Of a stretch of 24,595 nucleotides of DNA, positions 5,885 through 21,453 are shown piece after piece. The notes under the pieces are model-generated. The model did not search any database. It worked only from the letters and a program-made list of their open reading frames with translations, and was not told the DNA's origin. The first letter of the stretch is position 1. Each line of letters starts with the position of its first letter. This DNA comes from a virus. The stretch spans positions 1-24,595 of the IMG/VR virus record IMGVR_UViG_3300025889_000898. The stretch is one strand, 5' to 3'. Both the position numbers and the translations under genes were made by a program.

Positions 5885-6208
5885 ATTGGGATTCCTTGGT
5901 TTTTCAGGGGGTGACCCCGGTTAACGAAGGTCGAACAACAATAACAACAAGCCAAGCTTTAGCCTTACTTTTGAAATTGAATTAAATCTGATGGTACTGG
6001 GGTGGCAAAAGCTAGCGTATGGAACCAAAATCGGGTGGTGATCGTTGGTGTTAAAGTAACGATGTACGCTAAGTATCTGTAATCGTTAGGTGTAGATGGG
6101 CAAGCGACTGACTATCGCCTAACCATCATGATGCCTGATGTCCAAGACATTAGGTCATTAGAGAAATTTGTCTGGATGGGGCCATTTGATTGTGTTTAAA
6201 ATCGGGAC
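5885..6208. other. 324-base region without a recognised gene (late leader)
   Basis: No convincing long gene lies here. On the minus strand it is the leader between the late phage promoter and the tail fibre. It contains a short GC-rich dyad (GGGG-TGA-CCCC, about 5909-5920) just upstream of the fibre RBS. On the plus strand there is one tiny frame at 6128-6199 (23 codons, starting MMPDVQDIRS), without a clear RBS; I do not call it a gene. ATCGTT(G/A)G-type words occur at 6041 and 6082. GCAAGCGACT, identical to a sequence next to attP (21207), occurs at 6100. Confidence 0.5.
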
Positions 6209-6412
6209 ATGGAACATGAAGCACTAGGTCAAGGGATTATCGCAGCTACTACAGTTGTTATGTTAGTCCTGCCCTTCGTAATCTTACGTTGGCTATGGAA
6301 AGCTATCTTTGGTGCGAAGAAACGATGCTCTTCCTGTGCTGAGAAGATACAAGACAAAGCAATCAAGTGTAGACACTGTGGGGAACTACAGCCACTCAAG
6401 GCTAGTAAATGA
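6209..6412 (+). CDS. Small membrane-anchored zinc-ribbon protein (67 aa)
   Basis: Residues 9-35 form one hydrophobic segment (GIIAATTVVMLVLPFVILRW). This is followed by a basic linker (KAIFGAKKR) and a zinc-ribbon-like CSSC ... CRHC pair (C-x2-C, 12 residues, C-x2-C) at the C-terminus. The topology suggests an inner-membrane protein with a cytoplasmic metal-binding tail. It overlaps the next gene by ATGA, so the two are probably translated together. The RBS is weak (CGGGA just before the ATG). It is encoded against the direction of the late operon, so it needs its own promoter, which I could not identify. Function unknown. Confidence 0.65.
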   Translation: MEHEALGQGIIAATTVVMLVLPFVILRWLWKAIFGAKKRCSSCAEKIQDKAIKCRHCGELQPLKASK

Positions 6413-6578: not shown

Positions 6579-6597
6579 TCAAACGATACCCACAACT
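6579..6597 (-). promoter_or_regulatory. Phage-type promoter for the tail/late operon (divergent copy)
   Basis: On the minus strand this reads AGTTGTGGGTATCGTTTGA, matching the 19-bp consensus AGTTGCGGGTATCGTATGT at 16 of 19 positions. It lies downstream of the nucleotide-operon terminator and upstream of the tail operon, where a late phage promoter is expected. Its deviations from the consensus may make it weaker than the copies near the polymerase gene. Confidence 0.65.
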
Positions 6598-6627
6598 CTG
6601 GAATAGCCTGATATTCAACGATTCCCT

Positions 6628-6657
6628 TTGAATTGGCACAAAAATAGCTTATATAAT
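6628..6657 (+). promoter_or_regulatory. Sigma70-type promoter for the candidate small RNA
   Basis: The -35 is TTGAAT (6628-6633), the spacer is 18 bases, and the -10 is a perfect TATAAT (6652-6657). The predicted start is near 6664. No start codon with a useful frame follows before the terminator, so the transcript would be non-coding. Confidence 0.6.
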
Positions 6658-6663
6658 ACTTGA

Positions 6664-6801
6664 GTACGAGGGAGCGTCTGAAAAGTCCGAAATCGTATGT
6701 AGTGTAACATTGTAGCCAGTTTATTATTAACGGGAGGCTGTTACACAGGAGAGACTGGAACGACCCAACTTATATTTGGGACTTCTGGTCTCTTTTTTTT
6801 T
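6664..6801 (+). ncRNA. Candidate structured phage small RNA, about 135 nt
   Basis: This gene-free segment begins after a sigma70-like promoter and ends in a strong intrinsic terminator. Inside is a perfect 8-bp stem, GTGTAACA (6702-6709) with TGTTACAC (6739-6746), which can be extended by GCC/GGC across a bulge. A second long hairpin is the terminator itself. No open frame of note occurs. The segment 6692-6702 (ATCGTATGTAG) equals the 3' half of the phage promoter consensus in plus orientation. I do not recognise it as tmRNA, 6S, RNase P or any other named RNA. Promoter, structure and terminator are seen; that it is transcribed is inference. Confidence 0.5.
6750..6801 (+). terminator. Rho-independent terminator of the small RNA
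   Basis: AGAGAC (6750-6755) pairs with GTCTCT (6788-6793). The stem continues through TGGAA/TTCTG with wobbles, then a small internal loop and CCCAA/TTGGG. A run of nine T follows (6793-6801). Confidence 0.8.
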
Positions 6802-6817
6802 GTGCCTTTCGTTTTAG

Positions 6818-6850
6818 GAAAAAAAGCCCACCAGCGTTAACTGATGGGCT
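6818..6850 (-). terminator. Terminator of the replication/nucleotide operon
   Basis: On the minus strand a 10-bp stem AGCCCATCAG / CTGGTGGGCT with loop TTAACG is followed by a T-run. It sits immediately after the thyX stop codon and ends the long leftward operon. Confidence 0.85.
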
Positions 6851-6854
6851 AAAG

Positions 6855-7484
6855 TTAGACAGCACTCAAAGCCATCCAGCTGACCGGGAACTTGGCGATT
6901 GCCTGTTCCTGTATCTGCCTTGCGATGACTTGCGTCTCCTCTTGTGAGTGACTGTCTAATCGTTGGTTGCAAACCCTTGCAAATGCTTGCAATGACCCAG
7001 ACCAATACCATTCGGTCATCATGGTCTGAGGTAGTATCATTCGTGCTTGTTCTGGGGCTACACCCTGCTTGATGAGGATGTTGTAGTTCTTGAAGGCAAG
7101 AAGGTTTGTCTGCTCCAAGATTTTCTGAGGCACATTCTGGTCTTCTACTTCACCATCACTGCCCTGTTTGCTGTTCTTTGGTCTTCCGCGCCACACCGTT
7201 GGATTGTGAAACTCCGGCGGCTCATCGACATAACGCCGACTGACCTCGTTCCAAGACAGCCCAACTTGATGCTTCACTAGCTGCCTAGCGACAAAGATTG
7301 GTGCTTTGATGCGGAACTGAAGGAACGCATGGGCAAAGGGTGACCAATGCCCATGTTCCGCTAGGTAATGAATGAGCCTATCCTCTTGCTCTGTCATCAC
7401 TTCGCTTTCTTTGGCAAACGACACTCTGGCTGCATTAACAACCGTCAGGTCGCTACCCATGCTGTCTACTAAGGTAACATTCAT
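6855..7484 (-). CDS. thyX: Flavin-dependent thymidylate synthase ThyX
   Basis: Makes dTMP from dUMP using methylenetetrahydrofolate, FAD and NADPH. The ThyX signature region is present as KHQVGLSWNEVSRRYVD, between the helix PIFVARQLV and the downstream ILPQTMMTEWYWSGSLQAF core. Compared with the bacterial RHRxxSxNExSxRY form, the first and third residues are Lys and Gln and the loop is one residue longer, a variant I associate with viral ThyX. The length of 209 aa is normal. I chose the ATG at 7484, which overlaps the nrdJ stop (ATGA) and has AAGGAG five bases upstream; a GTG two codons earlier is possible. It is the last gene of the operon and feeds thymidylate to phage replication together with the ribonucleotide reductase. 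Confidence 0.92.
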   Translation of the reverse strand: MNVTLVDSMGSDLTVVNAARVSFAKESEVMTEQEDRLIHYLAEHGHWSPFAHAFLQFRIKAPIFVARQLVKHQVGLSWNEVSRRYVDEPPEFHNPTVWRGRPKNSKQGSDGEVEDQNVPQKILEQTNLLAFKNYNILIKQGVAPEQARMILPQTMMTEWYWSGSLQAFARVCNQRLDSHSQEETQVIARQIQEQAIAKFPVSWMALSAV

Positions 7485-9196
7485 CCACACTCCTTCTGAC
7501 CTGTAGCTGGGTCGATGAAACAGGCTTCTGCTTTTGGTTCATTGTCGTTAGCTGCTGGCTTAACCTCATTCAGGATGCCAAAGCGTTTACCAGCTGCCCT
7601 GAAGGTAGTGATGCCTGAACAACCGTTCTTCCAAGCCTTGTAGTAAAGCTGTTTGAAGTCATCGTAGCTTACGTTGTCGCCTACATTGCACGTCTTGCTG
7701 ACTGCGCTATCAACGTACTTTGAGGCTAGGATGAGGACATTCAGATGCTCATCAGCACTGATTTCGTTGGCTGTACGCCCTGCGATGCCCTGCGTGTAAG
7801 CGTAATCCTCAACTCGCTCGATGTTCTGACCATCAAATGACTGCACAGTTCGGTCGTAGTAATGACTGAACGGCGGCTCAATGCCGGAAGACACATTATC
7901 AGCTGTGAGGCTGATTGTGCCTGTCGGTGCGATTGATGTGAGGTGGCTATTCCTGATGCCATACAGATGGATTGCTTCTTGAACTTCAGGTGAAAGTGTC
8001 TGGATGAAGTTGCCTTCACTGTACTTTTCTTGGTCGTACAGCGGGAACGGCCCCTTCTCTTTTGCCAGCATGGCTGACTGGTAGTAACAAGTGTCACGGA
8101 ACATCTCCATGACCTCTTCCATCCAAATCATGAAGCGTTCAGATGCGTAAGGGTAACCAAGCATTTCGCCGGCATTAGCCAGCCCAGTGACCCCCAAGCC
8201 CATGCGTCTTTTGCTCTTTGCTTCAGCTTCCTGCTCTGGCAGCGGGTAGATGGTGCGGTCAATGACGTTATCCATCGCCCTGACCACAGTTCTGATGTCA
8301 CCAACGAACTGATTGTAATCAAAATCACCGTTAACAACGTATTTTACGAGGTTAAAGCTACCGAGCAAACACGCCCCAAATGGTGGCAGAGGTTGTTCTC
8401 CACAAGGATTTGAACTGCTAATGTTTTCAATGTAGTAAAGGTTGTTCTTATTGTTAATTCTATCAATGAAAAGAACGCCTGGTTCAGCCCAATCCCACGT
8501 TGAACGCATTATCATGTCCCACAAGGCGTTAGGGTCAACGTACTTGTAGACTTCACCTTCAAAGACCAACGGAAACTGTTCGCCACTGGCAAGGTGTTGC
8601 ATGAATTTGTCAGTCACACCTACTGAGATGTTGAAGCCAGTCAGCTTGTCGCTGTTGTTCTTTGCTGAAATGAATTGCTCGATGTCAGGGTGGTCAATGC
8701 GTAAGACACCCATCTGTGCGCCACGTCTGTGACCTGATGAGGCGATGGTCTGACAAACACTGTCAAAAATGCCCATGAAGCTGACAGGGCCGCTGCTCAT
8801 GCTTTCTAGCGACTTAATCCGGTCGCCTCTGGGGCGAAGGCGACTAAAATCGTAACCGATTCCTCCACCTCGCCGCATTGTTTCTGCGGCTTCAGTCGCC
8901 CTCTGCATAATGCTAGTCATGCTGTCCTCAATTTGTCCACTGACAAAGCAATTGTAAGCTGTGGTCTGCCTTGCGGCTCCCATTGCATTTTGAACACGAC
9001 CAGCTGGCAGGAAGCGCATATGGCGCAGCGCATCCTTGAAGTCTTTGAAGTGTTGGTGGTCGTCTTTTAAGGCGTCAGCGATGCGAACCACCTTGTCGTA
9101 GAAACTTTCGCCTGTCTGTCTGTATTTGATGGTATCCAATTCTTCAGACAGTGGAAGAGTTGGGCCGTAGTGCTGGTTGTGTTTGGTGTTTGTCAT
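7481..9196 (-). CDS. nrdJ: Adenosylcobalamin-dependent (class II) ribonucleotide reductase
   Basis: Reduces ribonucleotides to deoxyribonucleotides with a B12-generated thiyl radical. The active-site motif NPCGEQPLPPFGAC places N263, radical Cys265, E267 and the redox Cys276. Its partner is Cys83 in YNCFVSG; the C265/C276 spacing of 11 matches class II NrdJ enzymes. Other family blocks are RRGGGIGYDFSRLRP, RRGAQMGVLRIDHPDI, NSHLTSIAPTGTISL and NGCSGITTFR. The C-terminus has Cys559 and Cys570, fitting the re-reducing tail pair. At 571 aa it is a compact phage form and needs no small subunit. The ATG at 9196 overlaps the upstream stop (ATGA); a longer N-terminal reading from 9238 is less likely. 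The host must supply cobalamin. Confidence 0.93.
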   Translation of the reverse strand: MTNTKHNQHYGPTLPLSEELDTIKYRQTGESFYDKVVRIADALKDDHQHFKDFKDALRHMRFLPAGRVQNAMGAARQTTAYNCFVSGQIEDSMTSIMQRATEAAETMRRGGGIGYDFSRLRPRGDRIKSLESMSSGPVSFMGIFDSVCQTIASSGHRRGAQMGVLRIDHPDIEQFISAKNNSDKLTGFNISVGVTDKFMQHLASGEQFPLVFEGEVYKYVDPNALWDMIMRSTWDWAEPGVLFIDRINNKNNLYYIENISSSNPCGEQPLPPFGACLLGSFNLVKYVVNGDFDYNQFVGDIRTVVRAMDNVIDRTIYPLPEQEAEAKSKRRMGLGVTGLANAGEMLGYPYASERFMIWMEEVMEMFRDTCYYQSAMLAKEKGPFPLYDQEKYSEGNFIQTLSPEVQEAIHLYGIRNSHLTSIAPTGTISLTADNVSSGIEPPFSHYYDRTVQSFDGQNIERVEDYAYTQGIAGRTANEISADEHLNVLILASKYVDSAVSKTCNVGDNVSYDDFKQLYYKAWKNGCSGITTFRAAGKRFGILNEVKPAANDNEPKAEACFIDPATGQKECG

Positions 9197-9474
9197 GTCT
9201 TGGTCTGTTCCTCTTCCAGTAATTTGCTCATGTACCAACGAGCCTTGGCGATGTCTTCAAGACCATTCTTGTGGCTCATTCTCCAATTGTATTTTATTGC
9301 GTTGCCACGACAGAAAGCTGCAAAGCCTTCAGGGCCAAGTGCGGCGCGGATGGCGTCTATGCACTCGATTTCGCCGTCTTGGCAGTAATGTGGTGGATGA
9401 TTAACCATGTCTTGATTGTCAGACTGCTTGGCAGCTTGCTTCATGTACTCTTCATGCCTCATGTAGGTGTCCAT
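9193..9474 (-). CDS. DUF3310-family protein, possible nucleotide kinase
   Basis: A 93-residue protein with the family signature VNHPPHY ... GEIECIDAIRAALGPEGFAA, then CRGNAIKYNWRMSHKNGLED and KARWYM. This pattern is diagnostic of the small phage family DUF3310. I recall that T7 gp1.7, a dGMP/dTMP kinase, contains this domain, so a role in nucleotide phosphorylation is possible but unproven. The start has AGGAG eight bases before the ATG. The gene overlaps the exonuclease gene by 16 bases and its stop overlaps the nrdJ start (ATGA). The neighbourhood (exonuclease recycling host DNA, nrdJ, thyX) supports a nucleotide-metabolism role. Confidence 0.8.
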   Translation of the reverse strand: MDTYMRHEEYMKQAAKQSDNQDMVNHPPHYCQDGEIECIDAIRAALGPEGFAAFCRGNAIKYNWRMSHKNGLEDIAKARWYMSKLLEEEQTKT

Positions 9475-10190
9475 AGGCGTATCTCCTGTATTTCTTCATG
9501 CCAGTCAGACCAGCGTAAAATCCGCGCTAACCGTGCTTGTTGAATTGCGTCATCTCTGGTCATGCCAGCCTTGATGTAAGCCTGTTCGACTGCACCCCAA
9601 TGAGGCCGTGAACCAAGGATGGCTTCAGCTTTCTTGGGGCCGATACCGGGGATGCCTTTGTATCCGTCAGTGGCGTCACCAGTCAGAACTTGCGTAAAGA
9701 AGTTCTTGTCAGCTTCCGCTTCGCTTATCTCCAGCTGCTCATCAGCCATAGGCCGATAGAGTTTGCCCGGCACTGTCTTCAAATCTTTGTCATCACTGAC
9801 CATGATGCACTTGCCTTTATTGACTGGCATCGTTGCTAGTATCCCTAGACAATCGTCAGCTTCCATTTGTGGCTTCCTGAATGTCTTGAATGTTTCCTCA
9901 ACCCAATCGCATAAAGCCACATAGCCCACTGGCTTGCGTGTGCCTTTGCGATTTGATTTGTAGGATGGGTCAACAACCTTACGGAAATTGTCTTTATGGT
10001 CAGACAGGCAGCAGACGTAATCTTTAACGCCCAGACTGTCTGTGATTTTGGCAATTTGGTACTCAAACGCTTGTTTAGCTTCTTTCAGGTCAGTCTGGAG
10101 TGACCAAACATCGTCACCCCAGTCCACTTCTTTTTCAGCAGCTGACGCTGCCTTGTACATCAGGATGTCACTGTCTAGTGCTAAGAACAT
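9459..10190 (-). CDS. 5'-3' exonuclease (FEN/T7 gp6-like)
   Basis: A 243-aa nuclease with the acidic metal-binding set of the FEN family: D6/D8 in LALDSD, E110-A-D-D113, D133-D-K-D136 and the helix-hairpin-helix block TGDATDGYKGIPGIGPKKA (170-188). It should degrade duplex DNA from 5' ends, remove RNA primers and help to break down host DNA, as gp6 does in T7. It lies two genes after the DNA polymerase, overlapping the 117-aa gene upstream and the DUF3310 gene downstream. The first-codon ATG puts the N-terminal Asp motif right at the start, as in the family. High confidence. Confidence 0.92.
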   Translation of the reverse strand: MFLALDSDILMYKAASAAEKEVDWGDDVWSLQTDLKEAKQAFEYQIAKITDSLGVKDYVCCLSDHKDNFRKVVDPSYKSNRKGTRKPVGYVALCDWVEETFKTFRKPQMEADDCLGILATMPVNKGKCIMVSDDKDLKTVPGKLYRPMADEQLEISEAEADKNFFTQVLTGDATDGYKGIPGIGPKKAEAILGSRPHWGAVEQAYIKAGMTRDDAIQQARLARILRWSDWHEEIQEIRLWTPT

Positions 10191-10521
10191 CTTCCATCCC
10201 TTCCATCCACTCTAGCCCTTCGGCTGTCACCATCCATTTGTTGGTGTATGTGGTTTCATTTAGCCGAGTGGACAGAAGCCCCTCACTAGCGCACAAGGCT
10301 ACTGGATTAGCTGCCACTCGTGCGAAGTCGCTTTTGGTGGTGAATGGTGATTGCTTGGCGTGTACAAGCACTGTGTAGATTTCCATCAGCACTGCTAATT
10401 CAGTGTCATCAATGAGTGTCTGCCCAAGTTCGTCCGACACTAAATTCTGCTTCGATTGGGATTTTGAAGCCGAAATGTCTTCCTGCTTCCTCCGCCATTC
10501 TTCTAGCGAGATTACCGACAT
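10168..10521 (-). CDS. Hypothetical protein overlapping the DNA polymerase C-terminus (117 aa)
   Basis: No family recognised. The start is set by a near-perfect AGGAGG six bases before the ATG at 10521, which lies inside the end of the DNA polymerase gene, so the two genes share 113 bases in different frames. The N-terminal 35 residues are polar and charged (VISLEEWRRKQEDISASKSQ). The rest looks like a small helical domain (DTELAVLMEIYTVLVHAK, DFARVAANPVALCASEGLLS), perhaps winged-helix-like with TNKWMVTAEGLEWMEGM as a terminal hairpin; this is only an impression. The downstream exonuclease start overlaps it by 23 bases. A later in-frame ATG (10386) would avoid most of the overlap but has no RBS. 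Confidence 0.7.
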   Translation of the reverse strand: MSVISLEEWRRKQEDISASKSQSKQNLVSDELGQTLIDDTELAVLMEIYTVLVHAKQSPFTTKSDFARVAANPVALCASEGLLSTRLNETTYTNKWMVTAEGLEWMEGMEDVLSTRQ

Positions 10522-12175
10522 TATCTGCCTCCTCTGGTTTTGTTGCGATTTGTACTTCGTCATGCACCCAAGCGATGATGGTCGCATCGAGGTTTTGACG
10601 TTTGATTTCTAAGTCGATTAGCTGCACCCACTTTTTTGCTATGAGGGCGCCCGCTGACTGGAGCAGTACGTTCAATGCTGCGTGTTCACTGCGAACTGGT
10701 AGCTGACGACCATCGAGGCCAAGTAAATGACCACGCTGTTTGACGACCTGTTTGATTTGGCGCAGCAAGGTGGGGAACGCTGGCACAGCCTTAAAGTAGG
10801 CTTCTTTGATTGCCTTACCTTCTTTGATGCCTTTGCCTAGTATGTCGCCTAGTCGAGCATCGCCTGAACCGTACAGCGTGGCGTACTGGACTGTCTTCAT
10901 GTGGTCACGGCTTATGCCCAACTTGTCAGCGTTAATCTGGTGGATGTCACCGTTGATTAGTTCACGCCCATATTCGCCACCATCAGGTAGGAAATGAGCG
11001 AAGCACCTTAACTCAATGCCAGACAAATCTGAGCCGACAAGGACGTAGCCGTCAGGTACAGTGAACAGTTCCCTGCACTCTTTGCCGTATGCGGCGCGTG
11101 TGGCTGGTACTTGCTGTAAGTTAGGGCCAAAGCTAGATGCACGGCCTGTAACAGTACCAAGCGGGTTGATGGTATGACGCAGTTTGCCATCAGCATCTAC
11201 CAGCTTCATCCATGCGTTTTTGCCTTCAGCCAACATCCCAAGTCGCTTTTGCAGCATGAATGAACGAGCCAGCTTCTGCGCTTCAGGGTAATGCAGACCA
11301 ACCAATACGCTTTCATCAATCTTGGCGTCACCACTTGGGGTGAACAGCTTCGGTTTCCATCCGTACTTCTGCCGCAGACAATATTCGATGTGCTGGCGAC
11401 TGTTTGGATTGAACTGCACCTCACGGTACTTGATGAATGGTTCGCCTTTGACGTAACCCAGCTTCTTGTTGTTGACCTTCGGAATAAACTCATCCTCTAG
11501 CGTCCATGCTGGAAATAACGTCTGTAAATCGTCTTCAATCGTGGATTGCTCAAGCGACAGCTGGGCGTATAACGCCGCTGCCTTCTGAGTATCGAATGTC
11601 CATCCTGCTGTGCCAATGCGATGGCAAATCTCAGCTATTGAGTGTTCAAAGCGGATGGCTTTTTGTGACCACTTCTCAGGCTGCAAATGCTGCCAAAGAG
11701 CGTGGGTGACAGTAACGTCTTGCTCACAGTAATCCTGCATTTCGTGTGACCACTCGCTCCAGTCGGTGTCATCATTGCTGAAGTCACCTTTTAGAACGCC
11801 TAGCCTTTTGCCCCATGCCTTCAAGCTGTGCGACCCATGCAGACGCTTTGGAAATGCCTCGTTAGTCCAGCATTTCTCAAAGTCGTCTTGCTTTAGGTTG
11901 CCCTTAATCAGCCTCGACAAGACCAGTGTGTCAGTCACAATGATCCCATCGGTGCTGAAGAAAGGGTACAGTTTCTGGATGGCAGGAATGTCAAACGTGA
12001 TGCCGTTGTGGGCTATCAGTTCTGACGCTTGCGACAATTGCTCAACAGCTTGGTCAATCTGGTCTGGGCCGTAAGCCCAGCGTTGACCTGTGTCAGCGTT
12101 CATTATCGCTATGCAGTGGATGGTAGTGAGTTGGTCTAGGAAGCCGTTACTTTCGAGGTCAAACAACAACCTCAA
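10409..12175 (-). CDS. T7-like DNA polymerase, family A, with 3'-5' exonuclease domain
   Basis: Replicative polymerase. Exonuclease residues: D6 and E8 in FDLESNG, D62 in HNGITFD, Y148/D152 in YCEQD. Polymerase motif A is SDLSGIELRCFAHFL with D383. Motif B is RDHMKTVQYATLYGSGD with Tyr431 at the E. coli Phe762 position. Motif C is WVHDEVQI with D539. At 588 aa it is about 115 residues shorter than T7 gp5, so an equivalent of the thioredoxin-binding loop is probably reduced or absent (inference). The start is a TTG whose last bases overlap the MazG stop (TTGA); no ATG occurs before the exonuclease motif, so the rare start is forced. The 3' end overlaps the next gene by 113 bases. Confidence 0.95.
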   Translation of the reverse strand: MRLLFDLESNGFLDQLTTIHCIAIMNADTGQRWAYGPDQIDQAVEQLSQASELIAHNGITFDIPAIQKLYPFFSTDGIIVTDTLVLSRLIKGNLKQDDFEKCWTNEAFPKRLHGSHSLKAWGKRLGVLKGDFSNDDTDWSEWSHEMQDYCEQDVTVTHALWQHLQPEKWSQKAIRFEHSIAEICHRIGTAGWTFDTQKAAALYAQLSLEQSTIEDDLQTLFPAWTLEDEFIPKVNNKKLGYVKGEPFIKYREVQFNPNSRQHIEYCLRQKYGWKPKLFTPSGDAKIDESVLVGLHYPEAQKLARSFMLQKRLGMLAEGKNAWMKLVDADGKLRHTINPLGTVTGRASSFGPNLQQVPATRAAYGKECRELFTVPDGYVLVGSDLSGIELRCFAHFLPDGGEYGRELINGDIHQINADKLGISRDHMKTVQYATLYGSGDARLGDILGKGIKEGKAIKEAYFKAVPAFPTLLRQIKQVVKQRGHLLGLDGRQLPVRSEHAALNVLLQSAGALIAKKWVQLIDLEIKRQNLDATIIAWVHDEVQIATKPEEADNVGNLARRMAEEAGRHFGFKIPIEAEFSVGRTWADTH

Positions 12176-12609
12176 CGGTTGTCGCCGCTGCCTCGTAGAT
12201 GACCACGGTTCTTGCGGTCAGCTAGTTTTTCGATGTTCATCTCAGCGATTTCGCCAAGCGTGTAGTCAATGTCATCGGCAATCATTGCGATGTAAAACAA
12301 GACATCACCAAGTTCTTTTGCAATCTCTAGTCGCTTTTCAGCGTCAATCTCGCGTGTGTCAAAAAACTCGTCTAATGGCATTTCATCGTCACGAATGAGT
12401 TTCTTGACCTTTTCGACTACCTCGCCAGCCTCGCCAGCCAGTCCCAGTGCAGGGTAAAGCAACATTCCGGGGTAAAACGCAAATTCACTGGCGCATTGCT
12501 CTTGGTAATGGTCAAAGGAATCGCCCTCTTCAGCGCGGAGCCACTGCTCATCTTCCTCAGCCATTATCCGTTCTTCTTCAGCCAGAAAGGCTTCACTGTA
12601 TTTTGCCAT
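12172..12609 (-). CDS. MazG-like nucleotide pyrophosphohydrolase
   Basis: A 145-aa all-helical protein with the MazG metal-binding signature: GEAGEVVEKVKK (E60, E63) and, 36 residues on, ELGDVLFYIAMIADD (E99, D102), followed by INIEKLADR-type sequence (MNIEKLADRKNRG). It should hydrolyse (d)NTPs to monophosphates and pyrophosphate. In marine phages it has been proposed to change ppGpp or nucleotide pools, but the true substrate here is not known. An acidic 40-residue N-terminal extension precedes the domain. Its ATG overlaps the upstream stop by one base (TAATG) and its stop overlaps the polymerase TTG start, showing tight coupling. Confidence 0.88.
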   Translation of the reverse strand: MAKYSEAFLAEEERIMAEEDEQWLRAEEGDSFDHYQEQCASEFAFYPGMLLYPALGLAGEAGEVVEKVKKLIRDDEMPLDEFFDTREIDAEKRLEIAKELGDVLFYIAMIADDIDYTLGEIAEMNIEKLADRKNRGHLRGSGDNR

Positions 12610-12971
12610 TATCCGGTTACCTTTCTGATTGGTGCAATTGTCAGAAAACCCTCTAGTTCAGGGTTTAGCTTGTTGAACAGGCGTGTGTAGTAAGGGGCTA
12701 GAGCGTTCTTTAGCTTGTAGCTGCCACCTATCGTATTGACTGGGTAATCCCAGCGAATGATTTCAAAGATGCTTTTCATGCCGTAGCGTGGTCTGCCACT
12801 AGCTATCTTTTCCATCACCAGCTTCTCCACCAAGTCGTAGACATGAGGGTTTGCAGCGTGAAACTCACGAAAGTATGCCTCGTGTTCATTGATTGGTGGT
12901 CGATTGTCATTGGCTGCTGTCGCCGCGCCGTCAGTATCTTCAAACGGCAGTTTCATTTGTGCGTTCATCAT
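12609..12971 (-). CDS. Conserved phage protein of unknown function (120 aa)
   Basis: After a polar leader (about residues 1-30) comes a compact domain: EAYFREFHAANPHVYDLVEK, then MEKIASGRPRYGMKSIFEII, RWDYPVNTIGGSYKLKNALA and PYYTRLFNKLNPELEGF. Proteins with this 'F...NP.V...........GRPRYG....E..RW.......G...KLNN..APYY.RLF....PEL.GFF' pattern are widespread in phages and prophages from memory, without a known function; the shape suggests nucleic-acid binding (inference). I start it at the first of two tandem ATGs (12971), with AAGGAG nine bases upstream. The start lies inside the end of the primase-helicase gene. A longer reading to 13022 is an artefact of the open frame. Confidence 0.75.
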   Translation of the reverse strand: MMNAQMKLPFEDTDGAATAANDNRPPINEHEAYFREFHAANPHVYDLVEKLVMEKIASGRPRYGMKSIFEIIRWDYPVNTIGGSYKLKNALAPYYTRLFNKLNPELEGFLTIAPIRKVTG

Positions 12972-14598
12972 TTTCGCTTTCTCCTTCTTCTGTTTCGGTA
13001 AATTCAACCAGTTGAGCCTCAATCAGCCGTCCTGTGTCGCGCTGGTAAAACAGCGTTCCGGCATCGCCAATAGAGCCGCTGAAACGGTTCTTCAGCACTC
13101 TGACCATGCGGAAATCGCTGTCGGGGTCGTCTGGGTCTTTCTGGAGGCCAATCGCTGCATCTGACAGCTGTGCCAATGAATGGCTTGACCGAAGTTGGCT
13201 CAAGCTAACTGCCGCGCCGTCCTCGTGACCTCGCCCACTGGGACGTGTCAGATGGCTGACCATTATCATGCCAATGTCCAGTTCCTGAACCAATGTCCTG
13301 AACTGTGTGACGCATTTGTCTAGTTCACGGCGTTCATCGACCATGTTGGCTGTCAGCATCGTAACGTGGTCTAAAATTATGAAATCACAATCCAAAGCCC
13401 TCGCCATGTACTGGATGCGCTGGCAGATGGTTTCCACGCTGCTCACGCCAAAACTGTCGTAAAGGACGCAAGTCCGGTCATTGAACAGGTCGTCAAACCC
13501 TTTTATGACCTCTTGGTCTGACGCTTGGCTCCGGTCAATCAACAGGTTCTTGTTCAGGTGGATACCCACCAGCCCCAGCAATGTGCGCTTTGGAGCCTCT
13601 TCAAGACTGATTAGACCAACCTTCTGGCCTGACATCATCAGGTGGTAAGCCACTTCCTTAACAAAGGTGGTCTTTCCGCAACCTGAACCAGCTGCCAAAC
13701 AAATCAACTCTTTCTTGCGTAACCCCATGAGGCGTTCATCAAGCATTGAGTAAGGCCAGCTGACTGCGCTTGCAGTTTCATCGACACTGATGATGTTACG
13801 GAAATCGTGGGCTGACCTAATACCATCTGGCCTGTATTCACGAGCCTGAAAGATGGCTTGAATGACATCAGCTGACTTGCCCTGCATCAGACACTCATTG
13901 GCGTCTTTAGCTGGTAGGTAAGCGATGAAAGCCTTGCCGGGCGGTAGTAATTCAGCACAAGCGACTGCTGCCTTCTGACCGACCTCATCAAGGTCGTACA
14001 TTAGGATTATCTCTTCAAAGCCCATCAGGTAATCCCAATTTGCTTTCAGTGTCTTAACTGCCGAAGGTGCGCCGTGGCTTAAACTAACAGTAGGCCACTT
14101 GTGGTTCTGAATTTGGCTGACTGACATCGCGTCAATCTCGCCTTCGCAAATCACCAGCTTTTTGCCCTTGTGCCACAAATGTGAACCGAACAGTGTCATC
14201 TGCTTGGCATCACCAACGATGCTAAATTGCTTCGTTGCTGTCCTTATTTTTTGTGCTACTGGCTTGCCGCCTTTGTTCCTGTAAACAGCCAGCTGGACAG
14301 GTTGCCCATTATGCTGGCTTGTGAGGTAGCCCCACTTTTTACAGGTAGCCTCTGTCAATCCTCTAGCTGGTATCGCTTTTGGGACGCCCGACAGTAGGCT
14401 TTCTTGCTTTTGATTATCTTGGTTTGGTATTGGCTTCTCCTTTCTGCCATCTTCCGGGCTACCGGATTGATAGGTTTGACAGGAGAAACAGAACGTATGT
14501 CCGTCATCGTAAACTCCATTTGCATCACTGCTGCCACAAGCGTCACAGCTTGTTCTGTGTAGGAAGGTTGACTGGCTGTCAGGTACGGCTTGCCGCAT
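12940..14598 (-). CDS. T7 gp4-like bifunctional DNA primase-helicase
   Basis: N-terminal zinc-binding motif Cys18-x2-Cys21 ... Cys37-x2-Cys40. The TOPRIM primase core has EGEIDAMS (152-159) and DLDEVG (202-207). The C-terminal RecA/DnaB-like helicase has Walker A GSGCGKTT (304-311), the Walker B strand CDFIILDHVTML, and the arginine/sensor region SHLTRPSGRGHEDG with the glutamine/arginine helix SLSQLRSSHSLAQLSDAAIG. The acidic tail (ETEEGESENDE) may contact the polymerase, as the T7 gp4 tail does. The RBS AAGGAG lies six bases before the ATG. At 552 aa it is close to T7 gp4. It overlaps the following gene by 32 bases. Confidence 0.95.
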   Translation of the reverse strand: MRQAVPDSQSTFLHRTSCDACGSSDANGVYDDGHTFCFSCQTYQSGSPEDGRKEKPIPNQDNQKQESLLSGVPKAIPARGLTEATCKKWGYLTSQHNGQPVQLAVYRNKGGKPVAQKIRTATKQFSIVGDAKQMTLFGSHLWHKGKKLVICEGEIDAMSVSQIQNHKWPTVSLSHGAPSAVKTLKANWDYLMGFEEIILMYDLDEVGQKAAVACAELLPPGKAFIAYLPAKDANECLMQGKSADVIQAIFQAREYRPDGIRSAHDFRNIISVDETASAVSWPYSMLDERLMGLRKKELICLAAGSGCGKTTFVKEVAYHLMMSGQKVGLISLEEAPKRTLLGLVGIHLNKNLLIDRSQASDQEVIKGFDDLFNDRTCVLYDSFGVSSVETICQRIQYMARALDCDFIILDHVTMLTANMVDERRELDKCVTQFRTLVQELDIGMIMVSHLTRPSGRGHEDGAAVSLSQLRSSHSLAQLSDAAIGLQKDPDDPDSDFRMVRVLKNRFSGSIGDAGTLFYQRDTGRLIEAQLVEFTETEEGESENDERTNETAV

Positions 14599-14620
14599 CT
14601 GTTTCTCCTTATGATTTGGG

Positions 14621-14815
14621 TTAAGCTAGGCTGTAGCGGGTGTAACGCTGACCAAGATGGTCTTGCTTCCACTCACTAATGATTTCGTATCCACGCTGCC
14701 GTAAGTCGGCTATGCGGCGCGGAAGCGACCTGACCCTGTAAAGGTCAACAGCCTCAACGAATGTGATCGAACCAACCTTCATCAAGTGGTCTAAAATCCG
14801 GTCATTCTGGCTCAT
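14621..14815 (-). CDS. Small helix-turn-helix protein (HTH_39-like, 64 aa)
   Basis: The whole protein is one winged-helix-like domain: NDRILDHLMKVGSITFVEAV, then DLYRVRSLPRRIADLRQRGY and EIISEWKQDHLGQRYTRYSL. This matches the phage HTH_39 pattern (RIL.HL...GSIT..EA...Y.I..L..RI.DLR..G..I). It may bind DNA as a local regulator or replication accessory. The start ATG (14815) overlaps the endonuclease stop, with AAGGAG nine bases upstream; an ATG two codons earlier is possible but would have only three bases of spacing. Confidence 0.78.
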   Translation of the reverse strand: MSQNDRILDHLMKVGSITFVEAVDLYRVRSLPRRIADLRQRGYEIISEWKQDHLGQRYTRYSLA

Positions 14816-15245
14816 TGTCATTTGCTCCTTCTTGTAACCATTCGGGTGGTATCGTCTTGTGGGCGTATCGGAAGCCGTGCTTCTCGCACCAGTCGCAGTA
14901 ACGATTGGGACTGCCTTTGTACAAAGGGGCGTTCTGATTGCTGAAGACGAAGCGAATGTCGATGTCGGGGTGCTGTTCTTTGATGAGCAAGTGTTTCTGC
15001 CTATCATCAACAGTCCAGCGACCCTTCGTTTCGACAAAGAAAAAGCCGCCTTGTTTTGGCAGCTTGAAATCAGGTAAGTAGGTGGATTGTCTTTCAGGCC
15101 AAGTGTACGAAACTTTGTCGTCCTTTGGTTCGTACACAACTGGTAGACCAGCATCTGCTATTTGGCGTGAAACTGTTTCTTCCAGACCACTCCTGTAGCC
15201 ATTTGCTATGGCGTGGCGTCTGCGCTTAGAAATTGTAAGCGACAC
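14802..15245 (-). CDS. T7-like endonuclease I (Holliday-junction resolvase)
   Basis: Clear homologue of T7 gp3. YRSGLEETV contains E22, YLPDF has D59, and FVETKG has E72 and K74; these correspond to the T7 catalytic set E20, D55, E65, K67. The following block DDRQKHLLIKEQHPDIDIRF and the segment LYKGSP..Y...CEKHGFRYA are nearly the T7 sequence. It should resolve branched DNA before packaging and cut host DNA. The start is a GTG (15245) inside the end of the SSB gene (20-base overlap), with a weak GAAG upstream; no in-frame ATG precedes the catalytic helix. At 147 aa it has the usual length. Confidence 0.93.
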   Translation of the reverse strand: MSLTISKRRRHAIANGYRSGLEETVSRQIADAGLPVVYEPKDDKVSYTWPERQSTYLPDFKLPKQGGFFFVETKGRWTVDDRQKHLLIKEQHPDIDIRFVFSNQNAPLYKGSPNRYCDWCEKHGFRYAHKTIPPEWLQEGANDNEPE

Positions 15246-15756
15246 CGTCTGCTTCTTCAGCGTTGTCGTTGGCTGCTACGAAGCCGCCCTCTTCAGCGGC
15301 AAATGAAACACCGCCGTTGCTACCTTCTGACAGTTCAATAATTTGAACGCCAGCAAGCTGAAGTGAGATGCCGACATTACCGCCAGCCTGGTATGGGTAC
15401 ATTGTGCCAGCTGCCTTCAACGTGGAGCCGCCAAAGATTGGTGGTACGTTGTTTTCGCTAATCATCTGCCCTGCGCTATCCACGAACTTTGGCTTGAACT
15501 TGGATTTAGTGACGATTATCAAATCGCCAGTGTCTTCATCTTTCTTAAAAGGCATCTTTGCGTCTTTGGCTTTCGCACCAAACGCATCGTTAGCCGCTGC
15601 TTTCGCAGCTGCAACCAATGGTTTGCCTTCTTCATGTGTAACCCTGATGTTGACCTTGTACTGACCGTTTGAATCAAACTGGAAGTCAGCCTTGTTCAAC
15701 CAAGGGTACATCGCCACCCCTTTCGGGGTTGTAAATGTTAGTTTCTGTTTTGCCAT
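15226..15756 (-). CDS. gp2.5-like single-stranded DNA-binding protein
   Basis: A 176-aa OB-fold-type protein starting KLTFTTPKGVAMYPWLNKAD. A beta-rich core (YKVNIRVTHEEGKPL, DLIIVTKSKFKPKFVD, NNVPPIFGGSTLKAAGTMYP, VGISLQLAGVQIIEL) is followed by a Gly-rich linker and an acidic C-terminal tail ending in Phe (DNAEEADGVAYNF). The acidic tail with terminal aromatic residue is the hallmark by which T7 gp2.5 contacts polymerase and helicase. It is shorter than T7 gp2.5 (232 aa). It sits right after a small gene with TAATG coupling and just upstream of endonuclease I, the same order as genes 2.5 and 3 in T7. Confidence 0.88.
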   Translation of the reverse strand: MAKQKLTFTTPKGVAMYPWLNKADFQFDSNGQYKVNIRVTHEEGKPLVAAAKAAANDAFGAKAKDAKMPFKKDEDTGDLIIVTKSKFKPKFVDSAGQMISENNVPPIFGGSTLKAAGTMYPYQAGGNVGISLQLAGVQIIELSEGSNGGVSFAAEEGGFVAANDNAEEADGVAYNF

Positions 15757-15932
15757 TAAAAGCTATCCTTTTCTGATTGTTTGGCGTCATTGTCTTGGTA
15801 TTGGGTTGGCTCACCGAAATCTTCTATCGACAAGCCAAGACTGTCGGCTTGAGCAAGCAAATCCAGTGGGATTGGCTCACCACGAGAAAGGTACAGCTTG
15901 CCCAAACCAAGGAGTTTTTCTCGTTGGTTCAT
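15756..15932 (-). CDS. Small hypothetical protein upstream of SSB (58 aa)
   Basis: An ATG at 15932 with AGGAA five bases upstream opens a 58-codon frame. Its TAA overlaps the SSB start (TAATG), a coupling repeated throughout this operon, which argues that it is real. The sequence begins MNQREKLLGLGKLYLSRGEP, continues IPLDLLAQADSLGLSIEDFG and ends in a polar, acidic tail. No family is recognised. It is the first gene after the phage promoter at 16009-16027 and the small hairpin at 15973-15994, so it would be transcribed in the same class as the replication genes. Confidence 0.65.
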   Translation of the reverse strand: MNQREKLLGLGKLYLSRGEPIPLDLLAQADSLGLSIEDFGEPTQYQDNDAKQSEKDSF

Positions 15933-15972
15933 TATTGTTCCTGCTGTTTGTTAGACATTATGCAGCGCAAAG

Positions 15973-15994
15973 AAAAAGGCGGCTGAACGCCACC
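15973..15994 (-). terminator. Weak intrinsic terminator or attenuator after the polymerase gene
   Basis: On the minus strand GGTGGC pairs with GCCGCC around loop GTTCA, followed by TTTTTC. The stem uses a T-G wobble on the minus strand, which would be a C-A mismatch on the plus strand, so it works only leftwards. It lies between a phage promoter and the replication genes, and could stop host polymerase coming from the early operon. Confidence 0.55.
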
Positions 15995-16008
15995 TCGATT
16001 TGCTTTCT

Positions 16009-16027
16009 GCATACGATACCCGCAACT
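16009..16027 (-). promoter_or_regulatory. Phage-type promoter for the replication operon
   Basis: Reads AGTTGCGGGTATCGTATGC on the minus strand, one mismatch from the 19-bp consensus. Its first bases overlap the RNA polymerase TAG stop codon. The position matches T7, where class II promoters follow gene 1. Confidence 0.8.
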
Positions 16028-18818
16028 AGCTGAAGGGGTACTTTGCCCTCTTGACCTTTGCCAATTCTAGCTTGCCATCATCCGGTATCTCTGGAAGGTT
16101 TTGACCGCCATCCGTCAATCTTGCGGCGGTTTGCCGCCTGATGTCTGCGTAAAGGCTGTAGTCAGCGTACTGGTCGTGAAATTCAAGTCTAACCGTGTTT
16201 CGTAGTATGGCAGCGTTGCCAATTGTTGTTGCAAAGCTGTCGTGGACACACATCAAATCCGTAACGCCTTTCTCAGCGCAACCTAGCACCGTAGACATCA
16301 AATGAGTTGCATCCATTGCATGAATGATGTTTGGCGCAATCGCATTTCTACTTTTCGTCCCTTTCACTTCATCTGTGTAAACGCGAGTGCTGGAGCGTTT
16401 TTCAACTGTGCGATTTGCGTAAGACCCGCCCCACCAAAAAAGCCGGACTTTACTGGGGTTTTTTTCGTGGTTTAGGTACTCTTGAAACGCTGGAAAACCA
16501 ATCTTAGTTGTCCATTGAAAATGCTTATTCTCAACCTTCAAGGCGTCTGAACAGGATTGGAAAAATGCCATTCCTTGTTCAGCTGACTTAACGGTCGCCT
16601 TGATTGCACGAACCAGTAGGTTGGCTAGGTAAAATGAAGCCGTGTAGCCACAATCCTCACCGTATGGGTGTTCTGTTCGTGGATGGGCCGGGTCTTGAAC
16701 TTGTTTGGTAAACTTGTCGAAGTAGCTTTTCCGCAACGCCTTCGCAATGCCCCAATCTTCAGAACTGTAAGCCCACGTCATGACTGGGCCTTTGGCAACC
16801 TTTCGGGTTAAACCCTCCCCACCATCATCATGCTTCAAGCTGAGAAGGGTTTCAGCTGCCACTTTGCGTCTGCTAACCTTGTCCAGTTCGTCTTCGTCCA
16901 AAGTGATTTCTTCTATCTGACCCTGCTCGTTTTCATTTAGCCTGATGCCTGTCGCAATCTCACGTTCCATCGTTTGGATGTCACTTGGAATTATCGCTAA
17001 AGCAGCGTCACGACACACAATGTACAAATCACGAGGTTCAATTTTGCCCTCATCTGGGTCAACAAGGTTTACCCAGTATCCGTCATGTTCATTCAAACTT
17101 GCCGCTGCGTAATGTTGGTAACCAGAGTTAGTGGCATCAAGGGCAACTGGAAGTCCAGAGTAGTAAACTTTACCCGCCAGTCTGGCCTCATTGTAAAGGT
17201 AGCTTTCACGACAGGCAGCTACGAACTGGAAAGGGTCATCTGCTTGCATCCAAAAATCAAAGTTCGTGCGAAAATCTGCGCCAGTCTTCGTGATGTCTTG
17301 GATGTTGTCGCCAACCCATTCCAAACGGTCTTCGTATGATTTCTTGTCGATGCGATTGCCCCAAGTGTTAGCCAGCTGAAGGTACAAAAACTCATCGTTT
17401 TCCGGCGTAACCGCTGTCTTGTTGTAAAACATGAACAACGCCCGGATGTAATCATTCTTTTGGAAATTGAAATCAGGCGTACAGTAGACACGCCCCCTGA
17501 AATCAAATTGATGGGGAAGCCAGAACTTATCCAAACCTTCGTCAGCGTAGGCCAGTAGTTCTCTAGCTTGCTTCCGGTGGTTATTGAGGTTCAGATTGTT
17601 TGCATCAACTTCTTGCTGTTCTTGCTGTACCCGCACTCTGTCCCTGTACCACTGGGCTTTTTGGGAGTTGTCGTATTTGACCCAAATTTGATTTTCGATT
17701 TCTTCATGGTCGTCAGGTCGGTGAAGTTCAGGAAAATCACCTAGTTTTTTGTAGTTTTTAGTTTCTACCACCCAATCAATGCAGTCTAAGACCGTTTCAT
17801 TGATGGTAAGCGGAACCTTCTGCAAACTATTGATGGCGTCAAGACAATGCTGCATCTCACCATTATTCACTCGTTTGGTGATTTCATCCTTCTGTTCGCC
17901 AGTTGCGTGTTTGACCAGCGGAACTAATTTTCCAACAGCTGGGTCGTGGTAAGGCCCACCTCGATTAAGAGATTTTGCATCCCAGTTATTAGGTGGCACA
18001 CCAACGATGGGTGTAAACATTGGAAACAAACCATCAATCAACTGATTGCCGTCAGCCAATTGTTGTTTGGCTAAAGTTGTCATCACAATGTGACCGATAG
18101 GATGAGGCGAAGGTTTGCCGTTTTTCTCAACGTACAGCATCTTTTCCTCAAACAAGTCACACCCACGCATCACACAAGCTATTAGGAACGAGCCAACGGC
18201 CTTGTATTTGTCGTCAGACCACTCTTCAAATGCAGCTTCCCACTCAGGAAACCTACGGTCTGCTTCAGCCATTACTCTTTCTGCGTGGGTCAATTGCCAT
18301 TCTAGGTAATCGTCTTCTTCCTTATCGCCTTGTTTGAACTTGCCCATGTACTTTAACTGGTCAACCGTGGGAAAAAGCGTCTTTTTAAGTTCAGTCATCA
18401 GGCGTCTACCCGCACGAGTTTGCCTCATGTAGGCTTCGCGTGTCAGGGCTTCCATTGCCATGCCGGCTCGATGAAAGACGTTTTGTGACTTTAGGACTTG
18501 GGCGGCACTGTCTTGGCAGATTTTCAATGCAGTGATTGCAATCAAATCGGGGTCAACAGGCATCACTGGCTCAATCCATTGGGATTTGCTGCTATGACCA
18601 GCCTCTGCGACAAAAGCCATTACAGCTCCCATCACGGCCTGTTGAACTTCCTCTGCCTGTAGCTTGCTAGACTTCGTTTCAGACAGTCCCTGACGCTGCT
18701 CAAGCTGCTTGCGCCGCTTTTCGGCACGAACACGCCCCTTCGTCAGCATTTCTTGCTCACGGTCTATTTGTTTCTGCATTTCTGGGGTGATTGGCTCACC
18801 CTGATTGTCAATTGTCAT
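16026..18818 (-). CDS. T7-like single-subunit DNA-directed RNA polymerase
   Basis: 930 aa, slightly longer than T7 RNA polymerase (883). Catalytic motifs: motif A DATNSGYQHYAAA with D561 (T7 D537); motif B KGPVMTWAYSSEDWG with K676 and Y684 (T7 K631, Y639); motif C VHDSFATT with D860 (T7 D812). The C-terminus is KYPFS, equivalent to the aromatic 'foot' FAFA of T7. The N-terminal about 60 residues are charged and helical. It should transcribe the middle and late genes from the AGTTGCGGGTATCGTATGT promoters seen in this window. The ATG has AAGGAG 12 bases upstream, a long spacing. Four such promoters precede its operon, suggesting positive feedback. Very high confidence. Confidence 0.97.
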   Translation of the reverse strand: MTIDNQGEPITPEMQKQIDREQEMLTKGRVRAEKRRKQLEQRQGLSETKSSKLQAEEVQQAVMGAVMAFVAEAGHSSKSQWIEPVMPVDPDLIAITALKICQDSAAQVLKSQNVFHRAGMAMEALTREAYMRQTRAGRRLMTELKKTLFPTVDQLKYMGKFKQGDKEEDDYLEWQLTHAERVMAEADRRFPEWEAAFEEWSDDKYKAVGSFLIACVMRGCDLFEEKMLYVEKNGKPSPHPIGHIVMTTLAKQQLADGNQLIDGLFPMFTPIVGVPPNNWDAKSLNRGGPYHDPAVGKLVPLVKHATGEQKDEITKRVNNGEMQHCLDAINSLQKVPLTINETVLDCIDWVVETKNYKKLGDFPELHRPDDHEEIENQIWVKYDNSQKAQWYRDRVRVQQEQQEVDANNLNLNNHRKQARELLAYADEGLDKFWLPHQFDFRGRVYCTPDFNFQKNDYIRALFMFYNKTAVTPENDEFLYLQLANTWGNRIDKKSYEDRLEWVGDNIQDITKTGADFRTNFDFWMQADDPFQFVAACRESYLYNEARLAGKVYYSGLPVALDATNSGYQHYAAASLNEHDGYWVNLVDPDEGKIEPRDLYIVCRDAALAIIPSDIQTMEREIATGIRLNENEQGQIEEITLDEDELDKVSRRKVAAETLLSLKHDDGGEGLTRKVAKGPVMTWAYSSEDWGIAKALRKSYFDKFTKQVQDPAHPRTEHPYGEDCGYTASFYLANLLVRAIKATVKSAEQGMAFFQSCSDALKVENKHFQWTTKIGFPAFQEYLNHEKNPSKVRLFWWGGSYANRTVEKRSSTRVYTDEVKGTKSRNAIAPNIIHAMDATHLMSTVLGCAEKGVTDLMCVHDSFATTIGNAAILRNTVRLEFHDQYADYSLYADIRRQTAARLTDGGQNLPEIPDDGKLELAKVKRAKYPFS

Positions 18819-18913
18819 CCGTTAGTAATTCTCCTTGTGAAACTACTGTCCCATGCAGCTGCGTCTTAGCGCAATAGGGCAAATGGTGTTAAATGTGGGG
18901 ATGCTGGGGAGAA

Positions 18914-19153
18914 CTAGCATTTTGCTTTGGCTAGTTCGTCAAATCCCCATCTGTGCAAAATCTCACGCACCTGTTCCCTGTCAAAACTGTCACCTTCGAA
19001 ATCAGCCTCACGGTCAGGCGACAGGACGTAAGTCACTGCCGCCTTGTGAAGGACGTTTATTGAGGCACCCATGTCGTAAAGACCACCCTCGCCGTAAAAC
19101 GAGTGGCAGTATTCGACAAAAGGCTTGAGTATCGTCTTCAGTGTGTTTTCCAT
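18914..19153 (-). CDS. Small early hypothetical protein (79 aa)
   Basis: Begins MENTLKTILKPFVEYCHSFY, then GEGGLYDMGASINVLHKAAV, TYVLSPDREADFEGDSFDRE and QVREILHRWGFDELAKAKC. The C-terminal helix resembles a small alpha/beta protein, but no family is recognised. GGGGAA lies just upstream of the ATG. It is two bases from the preceding small gene and about 95 bases before the RNA polymerase, in the early operon, where T7-like phages place small host-takeover proteins. That role is inference from position. Confidence 0.65.
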   Translation of the reverse strand: MENTLKTILKPFVEYCHSFYGEGGLYDMGASINVLHKAAVTYVLSPDREADFEGDSFDREQVREILHRWGFDELAKAKC

Positions 19154-19155
19154 GA

Positions 19156-19326
19156 TTATTCCCCTTTCGTACTGTTGTTGTCGTTGACTGCTAGCCCAGC
19201 GAGGTCAGCTAAAGTCGCTCTAGGTCGCTTCATTGACCCCATTGTCAAAGCCTTCATGAGGGCTTTCTCGGCATCGTCATTGTATTCAGCTACGCTATTC
19301 TTCGGTGTTTGGACTTTCGTTGTCAT
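19156..19326 (-). CDS. Small early hypothetical protein (56 aa)
   Basis: I place the start at the ATG at 19326 (MTTKVQTPKNSVAEYNDDAE), which has AGGAG six to seven bases upstream. A longer open frame to 19458 runs through two of the phage promoters and is not credible. The protein is polar, with a basic centre (KALTMGSMKRPRATLADLAG). No domain is recognised. It is the first gene after the promoter cluster and is followed at once by the 79-aa gene. Confidence 0.65.
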   Translation of the reverse strand: MTTKVQTPKNSVAEYNDDAEKALMKALTMGSMKRPRATLADLAGLAVNDNNSTKGE

Positions 19327-19356
19327 TTTCACTCTCCTGTGTCTGTTTCGGTTTCT

Positions 19357-19375
19357 GCATAAGGTTCCCGCAACT
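19357..19375 (-). promoter_or_regulatory. Phage-type promoter copy, proximal to early genes (degenerate)
   Basis: Minus strand AGTTGCGGGAACCTTATGC; four mismatches to the consensus, three of them in the central TATCG block. It lies closest to the first early gene and is probably the weakest of the four. Confidence 0.6.
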
Positions 19376-19405
19376 TTCGACAGGCTTTGGTCAACGCAGC
19401 TTCTT

Positions 19406-19424
19406 GCATAAGATACCCGCAACT
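19406..19424 (-). promoter_or_regulatory. Phage-type promoter copy
   Basis: Minus strand AGTTGCGGGTATCTTATGC; two mismatches to the consensus. Second of four copies spaced 49, 36 and 37 bases. Confidence 0.72.
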
Positions 19425-19441
19425 CAATTTGCTGGTTTCCT

Positions 19442-19460
19442 ACATACGATACCCGCAACT
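19442..19460 (-). promoter_or_regulatory. Phage-type promoter copy (consensus)
   Basis: Minus strand AGTTGCGGGTATCGTATGT, followed by AGGAAACCAGC. Identical over 19 bases with the copy at 19479-19497, and the two also share downstream AG(G)AAACCAGC. Confidence 0.78.
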
Positions 19461-19478
19461 CAATCGTGGCTGGTTTCT

Positions 19479-19497
19479 ACATACGATACCCGCAACT
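19479..19497 (-). promoter_or_regulatory. Phage-type promoter copy (consensus), distal
   Basis: Minus strand AGTTGCGGGTATCGTATGT, followed by AGAAACCAGCC. Furthest upstream of the four-copy cluster before the RNA polymerase operon. Confidence 0.78.
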
Positions 19498-20081: not shown

Positions 20082-20110
20082 AAAAAAAAAGGCCACCCGA
20101 AGGTGACCTT
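20082..20110 (-). terminator. Rho-independent terminator of the integrase gene
   Basis: Minus strand AAGGTCACC-TTCG-GGTGGCCTT (9 bp with one wobble, stable TTCG loop) followed by a run of eight T. It lies 20 bases after the integrase stop. The hairpin may also act weakly on the plus-strand transcript of the small genes, since CTTTTTG follows there. Confidence 0.88.
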
Positions 20111-21393: not shown

Positions 21394-21453
21394 AGCTTTT
21401 TTTTGGCTATTGCAGACCAGCCTATTCAACCACTATCCTACCCAAATGAATAG
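21346..21453 (+). CDS. Possible leader peptide of the large plus-strand gene (35 aa)
   Basis: A frame starting MGKAIVYLLTILGQATSFFL, then AIADQPIQPLSYPNE. Its hydrophobic stretch looks like a membrane segment or signal peptide. Its TAG (21451-21453) lies just past the ATG (21446) of the large gene, which otherwise has no RBS, so translation coupling is possible. It has no clear RBS itself and could be a chance frame. Confidence 0.25.
   Translation: MGKAIVYLLTILGQATSFFLAIADQPIQPLSYPNE

Follow-up and report, generated by a model that had tools for sequence, protein, structure and literature searches.

A repeated intergenic motif as the predicted promoter set of the T7-like RNA polymerase of an uncultured marine phage

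What is the function of a 19-bp motif that recurs six times on the coding strand of a viral contig fragment? The preliminary description of this DNA (here called the window, 24,595 bases or 24.6 kb in full) had taken the six copies for promoters of the phage RNA polymerase (RNAP). We weighed this reading against three others, in which the repeats would be operators, elements of a replication origin, or host promoters or RNA leaders, and consider it very probable that the six copies are promoters, as predicted here, that serve the T7-like single-subunit RNA polymerase encoded by the phage itself.

The contig and its RNA polymerase

The minus strand of the window carries, in order, genes for an endolysin, an integrase, small early proteins, the RNA polymerase, SSB, a winged-helix protein, a primase-helicase, MazG, DNA polymerase, an exonuclease, ribonucleotide reductase and ThyX, and the tail genes come after thyX. 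The window combines a phage-encoded RNAP with a T7-type replication gene order on a single strand, as in the Autographiviridae. No capsid, portal or terminase genes were identified within the 24.6-kb fragment, and because the window is a fragment, the promoter set described below may be incomplete. The features needed for the argument are as follows.

20130-21050, minus strand: tyrosine integrase (start set at ATG 21050)
20089-20110, minus strand: terminator-like hairpin, after the integrase and before the promoter cluster
19156-19326, minus strand: 56-aa open reading frame (ORF), first gene past the four-promoter cluster (ATG 19326)
18914-19153, minus strand: 79-aa ORF within the RNAP operon, without a family match; homologues in L018, L022 and L017
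16026-18818, minus strand: T7-like single-subunit RNA polymerase, 930 aa (Pfam, PHROG 414, T7 RNAP sequence and fold matches)
16374-16460, minus strand: specificity-loop region of the polymerase, ~residues 787-815, differing from T7 and other lineages
4655-5884, minus strand: first tail/structural gene downstream of the predicted late promoter (ATG at 5884)

The 930-aa product is a T7-type single-subunit RNA polymerase, as judged by its Pfam match (RNA_pol, PF00940; 3.3e-65), its match to the T7 RNAP sequence (2e-42) and its predicted fold. The AF2 model (pLDDT 82) aligned with T7 RNAP with a VIA-align Z of 41-42 over ~670-790 residues (rmsd 2.9-3.7), and the catalytic residues D561, K676, Y684 and D860, equivalent to T7 D537, K631, Y639 and D812, were invariant in an alignment of 14 polymerases. 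The nearest annotated phage polymerases are only ~25% identical to it.

Six copies of the motif in the window

The six copies were found where the preliminary description had put them, all on the minus (coding) strand.

19479-19497, minus strand: predicted promoter copy 1, identical to the consensus; predicted start ~19480, the invariant G
19442-19460, minus strand: predicted promoter copy 2, exact; predicted start ~19443
19406-19424, minus strand: predicted promoter copy 3, 2 changes; predicted start ~19407
19357-19375, minus strand: predicted promoter copy 4, AGTTGCGGGAACCTTATGC, 4 changes in 19; predicted start ~19358
16009-16027, minus strand: predicted promoter copy 5, 1 change, ahead of the replication operon; predicted start ~16010
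6579-6597, minus strand: predicted late (tail) promoter, 3 changes; predicted start ~6580

With up to 3 mismatches to the 19-mer allowed, five copies were found, on the minus strand only, where dinucleotide shuffles gave an expectation of 0.01 by chance; the reversed pattern, searched as a control, gave 0 matches. When a PWM was built on five copies and used to score the sixth, the six copies reached 23.0 to 38.4 bits, and the best non-site on either strand reached 8.3. None of the six lies inside a called gene. The conserved block, AGTTGYGGGTATCKTATGYAGRAAC, spans 24 to 26 nt and is thus ~6 nt longer than the 19-mer. Its 5' edge is sharp: agreement is lost immediately upstream of AGTTG and kept for ~25 nt onward.

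Four of the copies stand in tandem, at spacings of 37, 36 and 49 bp, between the hairpin that follows the integrase and the first ORF of the RNAP operon, and the last of them (19357-19375) is ~31 nt ahead of the first start codon of that operon. The polymerase stop codon (16026-16028) shares its last two bases with copy 5, in keeping with the overlap noted originally. The further claim that the copies sit just upstream of operons held for the RNAP and replication operons and did not hold for the tail genes: the 6579 copy lies ~695 nt upstream of the ATG (5884) of the first tail gene, and a small plus-strand ORF (6209-6412) intervenes. This copy begins GAGGGAAC, not G[TC]AGAAAC.

A position upstream of operons would also be expected if the repeats were host (sigma-factor) promoters or conserved RNA leader elements. 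However, sigma-70 promoter-like sites showed no excess over shuffled sequence, their count falling below the shuffled mean, and sigma-70-like hexamers coincided with none of the copies. As for a leader element, there was no Rfam match, conservation is confined to ~25 nt with a sharp 5' edge, and the copies share no leader structure. The sequence moreover varies with the phage polymerase, as described below, and we give this explanation next to no probability.

The leader of the late promoter differs from those of the early and middle copies in being richer in G (GAGGGA, GGAGAGA), in the window (6579-6597) as well as in contigs L047 (17811) and L023 (10425), and is in this respect reminiscent of the T7 class III promoters.

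The motif at the same sites in related phages

We gathered related contigs by polymerase, primase and motif and scanned them without presupposing a motif, looking for 18-mers near the end of the polymerase gene that are repeated in the same contig. A strong recurring 18-mer turned up at the RNAP 3' junction in many lineages, each with a sequence of its own:

L026: AAGTTGTGTTCCACCTATG
L022: AAAGTTATGTATGGCCTATG
L017: CAAGCCCCGACACTTATG
L047: AAAGTTTTGTGTCCACCCATT
L086: TTATGTCCACCTATAGAAC
L091: ATTAATTGGTTTCACCTAT

Further copies lay upstream of RNAP and, where the contig extends that far, before the tail genes, and reverse-strand matches at up to 3 mismatches numbered zero in nearly all the relatives scanned. 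Relatives of 40.5 kb and 42.1 kb had exactly three matches each (upstream of RNAP, at the RNAP stop codon or just past it, and upstream of the tail genes), all intergenic and on the coding strand; a 57-kb relative had four, on one strand only. The cultured phage CRP-804 has an extra exact copy on the minus strand, directly before a minus-strand gene cluster, and because this opposite-strand copy precedes opposite-strand genes, motif orientation follows gene direction. The junctions of six contigs (L058, L061, L062, L067, L084 and L090) gave no convincing motif. A scatter of the motif inside the genes of relatives would have counted against the original proposal; its distribution in the contig and the relatives came out in favor of promoters.

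In the more distant contig L063, the motif (at 2050-2130 and 1196-1220) is a partial palindrome with weak reverse-strand matches; it could function there as an operator, or as a site of mixed type.

The same comparison bears on whether the repeats are iterons or another element of a replication origin. The primary origin of T7, which contains promoters, directly follows the polymerase gene, and the tandem promoters after gene 1 take part in origin firing, so that four copies clustered near the polymerase would suit such a role. Against this, lone dispersed copies at the tail operon and the RNAP stop are unlike an iteron array, and several relatives carry just one copy per site. An origin role would in any case add to promoter function rather than replace it; as a substitute for the promoter reading, we regard it as highly improbable.

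LUZ100 as a positive control

The phage-specific promoters of Pseudomonas phage LUZ100, phi1 to phi8, have been mapped by ONT-cappable-seq (PMC10134795, OP329100). The same scan applied to LUZ100 recovered 7 of the 8 mapped promoters and no extra site; the eighth is dissimilar to the other seven. The motif it returned, AATTACCACACAGGTAT followed by G, has the geometry of the window motif, 17 nt and then G.

LUZ100 and the window phage are both T7-like, and in both the integrase lies just upstream of RNAP, with a phage promoter, predicted in the window, before the polymerase gene. Both have a phage-specific motif of ~17 bp ending in TATG plus purines, with a copy upstream of RNAP, copies right after it and a copy overlapping a terminator. 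They differ in the motif itself (AATTACCACACAGGTATGG in LUZ100), in their polymerases, which are only distantly related, and in the number of copies before RNAP, one in LUZ100 and four in tandem in the window. The LUZ100 promoters, moreover, are mapped experimentally, whereas those of the window are predicted from sequence.

The motif tracks the polymerase

If the copies are promoters for the phage polymerase, polymerase and motif should change together. Two relatives of the window give a clear contrast. L006, whose RNAP is 94% identical to that of the window, keeps the window motif at the stop codon, whereas L018, with a primase 98-99% identical and an RNAP only ~30-33% identical, has a different motif there. 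The L018-type candidate motif, GCAGGGTGGNNNCTTATGCA, is unlike that of the window. A similar candidate promoter (GCAGGG-TGG...CTTATGCA) is found in L020, the L018 and L020 polymerases being 54-56% identical; a search for further contigs with the L018-type promoter or polymerase gave only L018 and one distant polymerase.

Over 22 loci, mean promoter similarity was 0.73 for RNAP pairs with 50% identity or more and 0.44 for the rest. Given primase, promoter and RNAP showed a modest partial correlation of 0.22 (p ~0.002, and 0.017 after close relatives were thinned), and that between promoter and primase vanished once close relatives were thinned. For these correlations the promoter strings were hand-picked at the syntenic site, and because they were chosen by hand, the automated scans weigh more than the correlation. 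Modest as the statistics are, the L018/L006 contrast is clear, and together these sequence comparisons support the conclusion that the motif tracks the polymerase and not the replication genes.

In T7, the specificity loop reads the promoter core, whereas the upstream half is read by a different part of the polymerase. Among the relatives, near-identical specificity loops go with an identical core, TGTCCACCCATT, and upstream halves that differ. By analogy, the same division between the loop and a different part of the polymerase would hold in the relatives sharing TGTCCACCCATT. These relatives and the L018/L006 contrast amount to a natural experiment on the joint change of promoter and polymerase.

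A set of repeats ahead of a polymerase operon might alternatively consist of operators for a phage repressor or activator, such as a regulator of lysis and lysogeny, rather than core promoters. The phage does have an integrase and a tRNA-derived attachment-like site, the four clustered copies are spaced at 36 to 49 bp, and in the temperate LUZ100-type phages a MarR regulator, co-transcribed with the integrase, is thought to act at this very place (PMC10134795). Yet the motif is asymmetric, always oriented with the genes, and also precedes the replication and tail operons; its last part is TAT(G) and a purine-rich leader; its LUZ100 equivalent coincides with mapped transcription starts; and it follows the polymerase although the replication genes are otherwise almost identical. 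No MarR-like gene was recognized among those proteins of the partial contig that were scanned. Operators are thus very unlikely to account for the six copies.

The promoter reading, by contrast, is supported by the operon-upstream location of the copies, their strand, their non-random occurrence, the matched motifs at syntenic sites in relatives, covariation with the polymerase, the presence and predicted fold of a T7-like RNAP, and the LUZ100 control.

Probable exchange of the polymerase module

DNA of L018 is 83.6% identical to that of the window as far as the polymerase start codon, and the match resumes inside the SSB gene, at 91.5%. Between the two flanks (84% and 92% identical), in L018 1-5790, the polymerase gene, the stop-codon promoter and the start of SSB are replaced relative to the window. 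This pattern suggests exchange of an RNAP module, although the break may possibly reflect a metagenome chimera. In contigs L011 and L035 the match breaks in a similar way close to this position of SSB. A broader proposal, tentative and in our view rather doubtful, is that the RNAP gene, its stop-codon promoter and the start of SSB might be exchanged as one cassette among marine T7-like phages, making near-identical phages transcriptionally orthogonal and so raising a barrier between co-infecting phages, and that in one branch the promoter-reading loop might have been altered by an inserted zinc ribbon.

The insertion in question is a CxxC...CxxC zinc-ribbon-like segment within the specificity loop of L012, L014, L015, L025 and the frameshifted L017; all four Cys are invariant (for example, in L015 residues 530-560). 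An insertion without Cys occupies this position of the loop in L026 and L036. The predicted model of a zinc-ribbon polymerase (pLDDT 38) was too poor to use, and we found no literature title or abstract on a zinc finger or zinc ribbon in the specificity loop of a phage polymerase.

A terminator-like hairpin beside the stop-codon promoter

Copy 5 is closely followed by a further element:

15976-15996, minus strand: intrinsic-terminator-like hairpin with a T-run, ~14 nt past the predicted start of copy 5

The hairpin is at the same place in L006. By a strict rule, a terminator-like hairpin with a T-run starts within ~20 nt of the predicted start at the stop-codon site of 11 of 18 loci, and two beyond these (L025 and L036) look alike by eye; its position is conserved across most lineages of the window's group. 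On the simplest reading, the hairpin would end host-polymerase transcription from the early region, and phage polymerase starting at the adjacent promoter would pass. It could instead be a regulatory attenuator. LUZ100 likewise has a promoter overlapping a terminator, phi4/T6 (PMC10134795).

Proposed mode of action and known systems

By analogy with T7, the polymerase would recognize ~17 bp, made up of an upstream part and a core read by the specificity loop. We infer that initiation takes place at the copies: the TAT(G) step would be melted, RNA synthesis would begin with the invariant G that follows TAT, or at most 1-2 nt away from it, and the purine-rich leader would come next. Host RNAP would make the first small amount of polymerase, and the four tandem copies would then feed the operon that holds the polymerase gene, leading to self-amplification. 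The copy at the polymerase stop codon would feed the replication genes, and the 6579 copy the tail genes. Such positive feedback in the window phage would parallel a like arrangement with experimental support in LUZ100, where the promoter before the polymerase gene has been proposed to drive it (PMC10134795).

The window set consists of predicted T7-like phage promoters, of a well-known kind and with a new sequence. It shares with T7 (promoter TAATACGACTCACTATAG) a length of ~17 bp before the start, TAT(A/G) before +1, a single-subunit polymerase and promoters right after gene 1, and differs from it in having self-promoters ahead of the polymerase gene. No T7 or SP6 promoter was found in the window within 3 mismatches. 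The Syn5 cyanophage, also a marine T7-like phage with a short unique promoter (ATTGGGCACCCGTAA, PMC3950665), is unrelated in promoter sequence. As originally stated, the motif is unlike the T7, SP6 and Syn5 promoters.

For EM1, as here, a polymerase and its promoters were first predicted from metagenomic sequence; they were then validated in vitro (PMC9596486). The EM1 promoter (TCAGAAGTCACACTATAA) is T7-like, whereas that of the window is not. The marine Roseobacter Autographiviridae CRP-804 and CRP-403 (PMC11092137) share with the window the order integrase, RNAP, SSB, primase, DNA polymerase, exonuclease, and their replication proteins are 44-46% identical to those of the window. Our scan found a motif at the same places in these phages, whose promoters are not discussed in the paper describing them (PMC11092137); it differs in sequence (ATTAATCACCCTTATTAG), and their RNAP is distant.

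The present set adds a family of predicted polymerase-promoter pairs from uncultured marine phages, comprising about a dozen lineages, several of them very different. The pairs are directly testable and usable as orthogonal expression parts. The results also suggest a wide occurrence, among T7-like phages with an integrase, of a self-promoter ahead of the polymerase gene, as is known experimentally in LUZ100.

Other features of the contig

Between the late promoter and the tail genes, the plus-strand ORF at 6209-6412 (67 aa) has a zinc ribbon (Zn_ribbon_3). A terminator-like inverted repeat is visible on the plus strand near 6740-6800. Upstream of the first tail gene, a stretch that is apparently non-coding (5927-6031) is 71-76% identical in L023, L046, L047, L048 and L064. 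A plus-strand ORF of 641 aa (21410-23335), coiled-coil-like and also present in L009, lies between the integrase and the endolysin; it had no Pfam, PHROG, PADLOC or phage tblastn match. A scan of genome contigs for an integrated relative, as a clue to the host, found none. Positions 21144-21192 are identical over 49 bp to L017, where they lie just upstream of the integrase. This stretch resembles the 3' end of a tRNA-Asn gene and is probably the phage attachment site; a 25-nt part of it recurs exactly in the 57-kb relative G015.
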